Source: Specibacter cremeus
GTDB lineage: Bacteria > Actinomycetota > Actinomycetes > Actinomycetales > Micrococcaceae
DNA: 64,000 bases
NCBI RefSeq assembly: GCF_003946885.1
Contig: NZ_RWKQ01000023.1
Span: forward strand, 869-64,868
Direction of reading: 5' to 3'
A model generated the notes under the pieces. That model ran no database searches, had not been told where the DNA came from, and was given only the letters and a program-made list of their open reading frames with translations. Shown here one piece after another: positions 31,345 through 47,819 of the stretch. The translations under genes and the position numbers were made by a program. Each line of letters begins with the position of its first letter. The first letter of the stretch is position 1.

Positions 31345-32178
31345 TCAGGCCCCCAACTCGGCCGTGATCTGGGCGGCGCGGGCGGCGGCGGCACGGGCCC
31401 CGGCGGCCACGATGCCCGGCAGACCCTGCGCGTCGAACGTGGCGATGGCCTGCTCCGTGGTGCCGTTGGGGCTGGTGACGCCCCGGCGCAACGCCGTCGC
31501 GTCGGCGCCCGGCTCGGCCAGCATGAGGCCCGCCCCGGCCACGGTCTCGCGGGCCAGCACGGCCGCGATGCCCTCGTCGAGGCCGAACCCGACGGCCGCG
31601 GCGGCCATGGCCTCGGCCAGGTAGAACGCGTAGGCGGGGCCGGAACCGCTGATGGCGGACACGGCGTCCTGCTGCTCCTCCGGCACATCCAGCACGATCC
31701 CGGCCCCGTCGAAGATCTGGTGTGCGGCGGCCAGGTGGGAGGCGGCGGCGTGCGTGCCGGCGGACAGTGCCACGACACCGCGGCCCACCGTCAGGGGCGT
31801 GTTCGGCATGGATCGCACGACCGGCTGGCCAGGGCGCAGCGCCGCCTCCAGCTGCGCCACGGACACGGCGGCCGCCACGCTGACGACGACGGCGCCCGGC
31901 TCGAGCGCGTCGGCCACCTCCCGGCACAGGGCCGCGATGCCGACCGGCTTGACGGCCAGGATGACGACGGCGGCGCCCACGACGGCCTGGACATTGGCCT
32001 GGTCGTCCTCCTGGGAGGCGATCGCCGTGACCCCGTGGCGCTGGGCCAGCTCGTTGGCGCGTTCCGGCCGGCGCACCGTGACGACGACGTTCGTGGGGTC
32101 GGTCCCGGCGGACAGCAGGCCGGTCAGGATGGCTTCGCCCATGGAGCCGCAGCCGAGGAATGCAATCTTTTTGCTCAT
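31345..32178 (-). CDS. proC: Pyrroline-5-carboxylate reductase
   Basis: The 277-residue enzyme makes proline from pyrroline-5-carboxylate with NAD(P)H. Visible are the Rossmann turn FLGCGSMGEAI (residue 7), ILAVKP (about 70), MPNTP (about 115) and the C-terminal helix ISGSGPAYAFYLAEAM with GVTSPNGTTEQAI. The ATG at 32178 is used because MSKKIAFLGCG is the family N-terminus; an upstream in-frame start adds a non-conserved 22 residues. Its gene ends 3 bp from the methyltransferase stop (convergent). Confidence 0.94.
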   Translation of the reverse strand: MSKKIAFLGCGSMGEAILTGLLSAGTDPTNVVVTVRRPERANELAQRHGVTAIASQEDDQANVQAVVGAAVVILAVKPVGIAALCREVADALEPGAVVVSVAAAVSVAQLEAALRPGQPVVRSMPNTPLTVGRGVVALSAGTHAAASHLAAAHQIFDGAGIVLDVPEEQQDAVSAISGSGPAYAFYLAEAMAAAAVGFGLDEGIAAVLARETVAGAGLMLAEPGADATALRRGVTSPNGTTEQAIATFDAQGLPGIVAAGARAAAARAAQITAELGA

Positions 32179-32309
32179 GGCTCCATCTTTGACGGTGCGC
32201 CCCGGTGGTGGCAATCCGCCGCCGCACCGGAGGCGCGCACCCACCGATTGCCAGCCTTTTCCCAGCGTCGCGCAAGGCTTCGTTCAGAGTCGATCCATAG
32301 AGTCATGAC

Positions 32310-32430
32310 TACCTCATAGAGGTGCGAGTGATGACGGATTGGAAGCCGGTTTCGGCTTCCCGTCCACGCGCCGGAGACCGGGCAGTGATTCCCCCAAGAG
32401 CTGGCCCCGTCTCCGGCGCCCTCTCATTTA
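32310..32430 (+). ncRNA. Candidate structured RNA, copy A
   Basis: Copy A starts with a 25-base head (32310-32334) shared almost identically with copy B. An 8-bp hairpin with a 4-base loop follows (GGAAGCCG 32341-32348, complement 32353-32360), then an 11-bp stem (32368-32378 with 32409-32419). The loop of the second stem includes five consecutive C (32391-32395). It ends with CTCATTTA. No open frame fits. It may be a small RNA with a C-rich loop and terminator, read on the + strand. Confidence 0.5.
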
Positions 32431-32570
32431 AGCGGCCATCCATGTGAATGCCGGCCTGGGCGTCGACACGCGCATGGACATCCACTCTCGTTTACTGGCA
32501 CTGTTCGATTAATGGGGAACACCCAGCTTCCACTCCGGCGATTCCCAACGTGAGCCCCTAATGTTTTAGT

Positions 32571-32695
32571 TACCTCATAAAAGGTGCGAGTGATGATCGG
32601 ACTGGTCCTGTCCTGAGAACCAGTCAAATCGCCGGAGAACTCGCCAGCGTTTCCCCCCATCCGCTGGCCATATGTTCTCCGGCGATTTCGCTTTT
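32571..32695 (+). ncRNA. Candidate structured RNA, copy B
   Basis: Copy B repeats the head at 32571-32596, with one extra A and two substitutions relative to copy A. Its 7-bp hairpin is 32600-32606/32619-32625, and its large 15-bp stem is 32626-32640/32674-32688. A 7-bp inner stem (GCCAGCG 32643-32649) surrounds a 12-base loop containing six C (32653-32658). It ends CGCTTTTAA, a good U-tract. Structure is conserved although loop and stem sequences differ from copy A, as expected for a functional RNA. Confidence 0.55.
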
Positions 32696-32704
32696 AAGGC
32701 CCGT

Positions 32705-32850
32705 CGGTGATTGAGCCTGCCACGGGTCTCGACAAGCTCGACCACCGGTGATTGAGCCTGTCGAAATCACGGGGTCTCGACAAGCTCGACCACCGGTGAT
32801 TGAGCCTGTCACGGGTCTCGACGAGCTCGACCACCGCAGCTCGACCACCG
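32705..32850. repeat. Three-copy tandem array of a dispersed intergenic repeat
   Basis: Copies at 32705-32745, 32746-32793 and 32794-32834 each begin CGGTGATTGAGCCTG and end GACAAGCTCGACCAC or GACGAGCTCGACCAC. Lengths are 41, 48 and 41 bp; a partial copy follows (32838-32850). Related single copies occur at 47799-47819 and, inside a coding region, at 55893-55921. The unit is partly palindromic (CTCGACAAGCTCGA). No cas genes and no unique spacers exist. Confidence 0.9.
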
Positions 32851-32854
32851 CACC

Positions 32855-33676
32855 CTACGGAAGCGTCTGGCCCAGGTGCACGCGGGCGAACTCGAGCGTC
32901 TCCGCCAGCCACTCCTCGCGTTGACCGGCGCCCTTGGCCTTGCGTGTGGAGATCTCGGCGACCACGGCGCCGTCGAACCCGTTGCCGGCCACATGGGCGA
33001 GCACCGCCGCGCAGGCCTGGTTGCCGTGGCCGGGGATCAGGTGCTGGTCCTTGCCGTTGGACGTGCCGTCGGTCAGGTGGATGTGCCGCAGCCGCTCGCC
33101 CAGCGACATGATCGCGTCCAGGCTGTTCGCCTCGGCTGTCGCGGCATGGGAGAAGTCCCACGTCACATCCGCGTAGTCGAGCGGCACCGGGTCCCAGTGC
33201 GGCAGGTACGCCAGCGCCTCGCGCCCGCGCACGCGCCACGGGTACATGTTCTCCACGGCGATGCGCACCCCGAACGTGTCGGCGATGTCGCGCACGCCGT
33301 GCGCGAACGTTTCGGCGTAGTCGTTCTGCCACCGGAACGGTGGATGGACGACGACGACGTCGGCACCCACCTCCACGGCCATCTGCGCCGAGCGCTGGAT
33401 CTTGTTCCAGGGGCTCCCCCACACCTGCTGTGTCAGCAGCAGGGTCGGGGCGTGGATGGCGAGGATCGGCTGGTCGTACCGCTCGGCCAGCTGCAGCAGG
33501 GCGTGCGCGTCCTGGCTCGTGCCGTTGTGCGTGACCAGCACCTCCACGCCGTCGTAGCCCAGGTCGGCGGCAACCGCGAACCCGTCGTGGACGGTCAGCG
33601 GGTACACCGAGGCGGTCGACAAGGCCACCGGGATGTCCCGGTGGCCGGAGGCTGGCGTCGAGGTTTCCATGCTCAC
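32855..33676 (-). CDS. Sugar phosphate isomerase/epimerase-like TIM barrel protein
   Basis: The 273-residue AP-endonuclease-2 fold protein has metal-site segments VLVTHNG, VHPPFRWQ, VENMYPWRV, DFSHAATAE and HIHLTDGTSNGKDQHLIPGHGN. The last, with paired His and Gly-His, is family-specific. It could act on inositol, sugars or cell-wall derivatives; no substrate is inferable. It overlaps the Ppx/GppA stop by 4 bp and its stop lies 4 bp from the tandem repeat array. Confidence 0.82.
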   Translation of the reverse strand: MSMETSTPASGHRDIPVALSTASVYPLTVHDGFAVAADLGYDGVEVLVTHNGTSQDAHALLQLAERYDQPILAIHAPTLLLTQQVWGSPWNKIQRSAQMAVEVGADVVVVHPPFRWQNDYAETFAHGVRDIADTFGVRIAVENMYPWRVRGREALAYLPHWDPVPLDYADVTWDFSHAATAEANSLDAIMSLGERLRHIHLTDGTSNGKDQHLIPGHGNQACAAVLAHVAGNGFDGAVVAEISTRKAKGAGQREEWLAETLEFARVHLGQTLP

Positions 33677-47798: not shown

Positions 47799-47819
47799 GG
47801 GTCTCGACGGGCTCGACCA
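47799..47819. repeat. Single copy of the dispersed repeat
   Basis: GGGTCTCGACGGGCTCGACC lies 19 bp after the flavin reductase stop, between two convergent genes. It shares 18 of 20 positions with the array at 32705 and the copy at 55893. Confidence 0.85.

Follow-up and report, generated by a model that had tools for sequence, protein, structure and literature searches.

Among the closest described systems are the CiaRH-controlled csRNAs of pneumococci, which are several similar intergenic small RNAs (sRNAs), each provided with a promoter carrying a response-regulator direct repeat, and the 6C RNAs, whose C-rich loops pair with G-rich ribosome-binding sites. In Listeria, the LhrC sRNAs are controlled by LisRK and use C/U-rich stretches to bind mRNA and impede its translation (PMC4132741). 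Mcr7 of Mycobacterium tuberculosis, a PhoP-dependent non-coding RNA, is reported to be structured and to have a 33-nt unstructured loop (PMC4038636). The PhoP of this organism binds TCACAGC repeats whose spacer is strictly 4 bp, i.e., with an 11-bp period, and tri- and tetra-repeats are bound more tightly (PMC4832192).

Here, we discuss two predicted sRNA genes in a 64,000-nucleotide stretch of the genome of Specibacter cremeus (hereafter, the window). They belong to a family of the Micrococcaceae which is distinct from 6C and LhrC, is apparently undescribed and would extend the response-regulator-controlled sibling sRNAs by a new common head and a new lineage; the open-licence literature yielded no account of the head or of a family of this sort. 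Several sibling intergenic genes per genome and response-regulator-type direct repeats in the promoters (weaker in the window copies) are shared with the LhrC and csRNA kind. Both likenesses are by description: the csRNAs are from Firmicutes and have another repeat, that of CiaR, and LhrC1–5 are from a phylum other than that of the Micrococcaceae. The multicopy siblings and LisRK dependence of the latter (PMC4132741) would be paralleled by the siblings and promoter repeats found here, the present RNAs differing in their conserved 5′ head and in C-loops sitting atop a long terminator-like stem. Mcr7, too, is likened by description, in that a direct-repeat promoter of the PhoP type drives a non-coding RNA.

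Two tandem predicted sRNA genes beside proC

Both elements lie in a 676-bp gap between proC (31345–32178, minus strand) and a TIM-barrel gene (32855–33676, minus strand); what the sequence-only reading of this DNA had called a gene desert is an ordinary intergenic gap. Within it, positions 32248–32698 hold two complete tandem predicted sRNA genes on the plus strand, in each of which a promoter and a conserved 5′ head precede a hairpin, a long C-loop hairpin and a U-rich tail. The heads, described in that reading as nearly identical stretches of about 25 bases some 260 bp apart, are spaced by 261 bp (32311–32334 and 32572–32596) and identical except in the loop; the small hairpin, the long stem whose loop holds five or six C, and the U-tract are likewise seen in both copies. 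While the RNA elements had been recognised correctly, the promoters upstream of them (32248–32303 and 32509–32564) had been overlooked. A covariance model of the −10-plus-head region (R1) finds two matches only, copies 1 and 2, in the window and in the entire host genome.

Copy 1 is preceded by a direct-repeat array with 11-bp spacing (32248–32288), delimited by the family consensus and comprising TTGCCAGC (32248), TTCCCAGC (32259), a degenerate unit (32270) and CGTTCAGA (32281). The −10 hexamer TAGAGT (32298–32303) follows from the family promoter alignment, and transcription would be expected to start about 5–8 nt downstream of it, at the head. The head itself (32311–32334; R1, 50.8 bits, E 3e-10) consists of the hairpin ACCUC-AUA-GAGGU and the adjoining GCGAGUGAUGA, and is succeeded in the predicted fold by hairpin 1 (32336–32365), by a long terminator-like stem (32368–32419) with a five-C loop (32391–32395), and by a weakly U-rich 3′ tail (32420–32432; CCUCUCAUUUAAG).

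In copy 2, the upstream array (32509–32549) is recognisable in CACCCAGC (32520) and TTCCCAAC (32542), its other units being degenerate, and the same alignment places the −10 hexamer TAATGT at 32559–32564. The head (32572–32596; R1, 54.2 bits, E 5e-11), an ACCU-loop-AGGU hairpin again followed by GCGAGUGAUGA, leads into hairpin 1 (32600–32625; GACUGGU..ACCAGUC), a long terminator-like stem (32626–32688) with the loop UUUCCCCCCAUC containing six C (32653–32658), and a 3′ U-tract (32689–32698; CGCUUUUAAG). In both window copies, a C-run is present in the long hairpin and absent from hairpin 1. Directly 3′ of copy 2 (32722–32840), a ~45-bp repeat (GGTGATTGAGCCTGTCGAAATCACGGGGTCTCGACAAGCTCGACCACC) is present three times in direct orientation, and it recurs singly at 47801 and 55899, with a chance expectation of none; related sequence is also found at two other loci of the same genome (L241 and L078).

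Folding is considerably more stable than that of dinucleotide shuffles (z of −4.81 for copy 1 and −6.08 for copy 2), with 0 of 200 shuffles as good. The sequence-only reading had stated that sequence changes preserve pairing and had named covariation among homologues as a point to check, and homologues do covary. In ten orthologues of copy 1, 17 of 35 pairs are changed on both sides (8 of 12 in hairpin 1, nine of 18 in the long stem), amounting to 35 double-change cells against 11.1 in shuffles, and controls with slid partners collapse. In 22 orthologues of copy 2, both sides are changed in eight of 34 pairs (four of eight in hairpin 1; four of 22 in the long stem, where most other pairs are invariant), giving 23 double-change cells against 6.4, and pairing drops from 96% to at most 48% once partners are slid. 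For either copy, none of 500 shuffles reached the observed count. G-U pairs outnumber A-C combinations 31 to 3 in the copy 1 orthologues, which designates the plus strand as the RNA; since the corresponding counts for copy 2 (14 versus 18) are ambiguous, the strand assignment rests on the copy 1 orthologues together with the promoters and the U-tails. That the two tandem candidates are structured RNA genes is, thus, borne out by the folding scores and strongly supported by covariation, by conservation of the head across the family and of the promoters, by ends that resemble terminators and by downstream genes that are mostly convergent.

The head family in the Micrococcaceae

The covariance search in related genomes, as had been proposed, revealed a family in the Micrococcaceae. 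By BLAST and pattern searches, the head is present in 22 of 22 other genomes of the same genus and in most genera of the family; an exact pattern recovers it from 154 of 295 Micrococcaceae genomes, covering 26 of 32 genera, with a reversed-pattern control yielding none. In an order-wide sample, R1 matches 22 of 24 Micrococcaceae genomes and none of 273 others, and in a class-wide sample of 395 genomes it has no match outside this family; the two samples partly overlap. About 660 genome searches outside the Micrococcaceae did not return the head. The matches listed include Arthrobacter, Paenarthrobacter, Pseudarthrobacter, Glutamicibacter, Micrococcus, Kocuria, Citricoccus, Zhihengliuella, Auritidibacter, Galactobacter and others, by which the family is assigned to the Micrococcaceae. 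Other pattern matches among those listed (Rhizobium, Salinigranum, Rhodococcus and the like) are without the promoter and are regarded as chance. Two public records, L116 (contig JABBNV010000125.1, titled Acidobacteria) and L098 (titled Sporosarcina beigongshangi), combine a head and a proC synteny that are Micrococcaceae-like and, hence, look misbinned or misnamed.

The host has two copies, other genomes up to eight. Tandem copies within one locus are always on the same strand and often 150–250 bp apart; in multicopy genomes (G032:C14, G235:C3, G067:C5, G061:C6/C12), many copies crowd into stretches of about 100 kb and mostly share a strand, which suggests local duplication. The locus between proC and TIM/ppx is kept across genera in Arthrobacter-type genomes, with ProC identity down to ~56%, while other genera carry copies at other sites; this conserved synteny at proC rules out a mobile repeat as the explanation of the window copies.

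Across 129 non-redundant members, AGGUGCGAGUGAU is the near-invariant part of the head, a statement which rests on the variants found by the model, because the pattern used to gather the 129 members itself fixes most letters of AGGUGCGAGUGAU; the model-found variants keep GUGCGAGUGA and lose the AUG that follows. Within the head hairpin ACCU/AGGU, variation is mainly from U-A to U-G and from A-U to G-U, with a U-A to C-G change in L272 and ACCUU/AAGGU in L249 and L267, and the length of the loop varies by several nucleotides among members. These pair-keeping changes together with the variable loop length fit an RNA better than a DNA-binding site. The sequence 3′ of the head is unconserved, and the bodies can be as small as one 40-nt hairpin or comprise two hairpins, some having C-loops and others none. 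Of the 129 bodies, 84 contain unpaired runs of five or more C, as opposed to 13.7 in shuffles, while an unpaired G5 is seen in one; the context of the C-runs is consistent, with mostly UUU-CCCCC(C)-A flanks, i.e., UUUCCCCC(C)A. About one third of the bodies (e.g., several Glutamicibacter members) are without a C5 loop, so that pairing through such a loop cannot serve every member.

Promoter repeats and the candidate regulator

When the promoters of the 129 members are aligned on the −10 hexamer (TAnnGT, at a near-fixed distance), four direct repeats TTCMCAGC emerge at −50, −39, −28 and −17. Individual promoters carry up to four units in an exact 11-bp period; the window arrays are imperfect, copy 1 retaining two or three well-preserved units and copy 2 two. 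In motif and spacing, the family repeats match the Mycobacterium PhoP box of 7-bp TCACAGC-like units with 4-bp spacers. They differ from the motif of Streptomyces MtrA (PMC5650626).

The host encodes a response regulator (L300, on C45) whose best match among solved structures is M. tuberculosis PhoP (7e-87, 294 bits), the next response regulator scoring 181 bits. Its recognition helix (SIVESYISYLRRK, compared with NVVESYVSYLRRK in M. tuberculosis PhoP) keeps the equivalents of E215, S216, Y217 and Y220, while N212 is replaced by S and V213 by I. L300 would, thus, be the candidate regulator of these promoters, an assignment weakened by a second PhoP-like response regulator (L303, on C56) and an MtrA (L304) in the host. 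The recognition helices of L300 and L303 differ slightly (SIVESYISYLRRK versus NIVELYISYLRKK). Genome-wide, a two-unit box is not enriched over the control in the host. A PhoP-box-like repeat (TTCCCAGAAAGTTCCCAG) with a TAGACT hexamer downstream was seen elsewhere in the same genome (L243, ~1501–1517, on C28), ahead of a gene for a peptide-binding ABC-transporter lipoprotein; this promoter is a possible further target of the same regulator.

Known RNA families, alternative readings and proposed function

Searches of Rfam 15 at gathering score gave no match, either in the window or at eight further member loci, and relaxed thresholds return on the window chance microRNA and snoRNA matches and a ROSE-like minus-strand match far below cut-off. 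It is very unlikely that the RNAs are divergent members of the Rfam 6C family (RF01066), a reading which their actinobacterial origin, their hairpins with C-rich loops and the two C-loops following the head in L016, L056 and L133 would favour: the comparison with 6C, which had been proposed in the sequence-only reading, gives no match to RF01066 in the window up to E 10 or in the two-C-loop members L133 and L056 up to E 1, most members have at most one C-loop, and genuine 6C matches in relatives are without the head. Moreover, 6C consists of two consecutive C-loop hairpins and has no ACCUC..AGGUGCGAGUGAU head, whereas the window RNAs combine the head with one C-loop hairpin, and the two kinds occupy separate loci. 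An element of G017 scores 24.7 bits with RF01066, below its gathering score of 47 bits. Relatives also contain 6C-like RNAs with two or three consecutive C-loop hairpins that are without the head, namely L065 (G032), which passes the RF01066 cut-off, L067 (G027), just below it, and L072 (G026), well below. Xanthomonas sX13 (RF02232) is an sRNA with C-rich loops as well, yet it is from a different phylum and without the head; its sub-threshold score with L133 (19.5 bits against 50) is at chance level.

A short translated leader or dual-function RNA, with AGGUG as Shine-Dalgarno sequence and AUGA as start, would explain why the spacing AGGUG-N6-AUG is ideal in most members; it is scarcely plausible, however, given that the AUG is replaced in model-found members (GAUUG, GAUAA, GAUC, GAGACC), that frames from the AUG are no longer than another frame and that the bodies are unconserved in sequence. 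As the AUG frame has no coding signal, the head is no start site. Hardly any room is left for a riboswitch or attenuator acting in cis as a leader of the gene that follows, or for a mere terminator between convergent genes. The terminator-like 3′ stem and a co-oriented next gene in 28 of 112 members are in keeping with it, but the gene that follows is oppositely oriented in the window and in 84 of 112 members, each copy has its own promoter, and a mere terminator needs no head, promoter or conserved loop. The mostly opposite orientation of the downstream gene and the individual promoters identify the copies as independent genes, not leaders.

More serious, and still to be judged as doubtful, is the possibility that the RNAs act mainly via the head, with AGGUGCGAGUGAU binding a protein (an RNA chaperone, a ribosomal protein or the transcription machinery) and the bodies being interchangeable stabilising terminators. 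It would account for the near-invariance of the head alone, next to bodies that vary in hairpin number and C-loops, and it is compatible with the absence of Hfq from the host and 17 relatives (18 genomes). A conserved antisense target of the head was not found, since a perfect 11-nt match recurs at no common gene among 12 genus members. Complementarity of the head to its own 3′ tail (48% of tails versus 25% with shuffled heads) is at p ~0.04 and positionally inconsistent. The protein partner is, however, hypothetical, and the enrichment of C5+ loops in their constant context needs a reason of its own.

We favour a multicopy family of trans-acting sRNAs under PhoP-type control, which would use their C-rich loops to silence mRNAs; to this reading, we assign a probability of roughly 0.7. 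The evidence is sequence-based, comprising the structure with its covariation, the head, the repeats in the promoters, an arrangement that is independent of downstream genes at most loci, the distribution of the family and the host PhoP homologue, from which we infer transcription, PhoP binding, loop–target pairing and the role of the head. The two tandem siblings would encode independent intergenic trans-acting sRNAs of ~120–130 nt, transcribed rightwards from their own promoters, where a PhoP-type response regulator of the OmpR/PhoB family would bind the upstream 11-bp repeats and activate transcription upon its signal. The RNA would begin at the head with a short hairpin and a single-stranded GCGAGUGAU, a common handle of all siblings for stability or for a protein partner, and the exposed UUUCCCCC(C)A loop would pair with G-rich ribosome-binding sites and block translation of the target; siblings with different bodies could provide dosage and different targets. 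Because Hfq is absent, pairing would either do without a chaperone or depend on a different protein. The host encodes a KhpA-type KH protein, for which the head may be a handle. More speculatively, the head could be the site at which a dedicated RNA-binding partner docks in the Hfq-less Micrococcaceae, a family-wide tag uniting structurally unrelated bodies in one PhoP-type-controlled network.

Given the shared near-invariant head, the frequent run-of-C loops and the PhoP-type promoters, the family is probably a set of switchable gene silencers whose promoters look wired to a PhoP-type stress sensor. It touches on the poorly understood field of post-transcriptional control in Hfq-less high-GC Gram-positive bacteria and looks both large and countable, its members running into the hundreds among bacteria that are common in soil and on skin. 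With what looks like a clear promoter code and a single conserved recognition element, it opens two questions to direct testing: which factor takes the place of Hfq in these bacteria, and whether multicopy sRNAs are the means by which PhoP-type systems act outside the mycobacteria.
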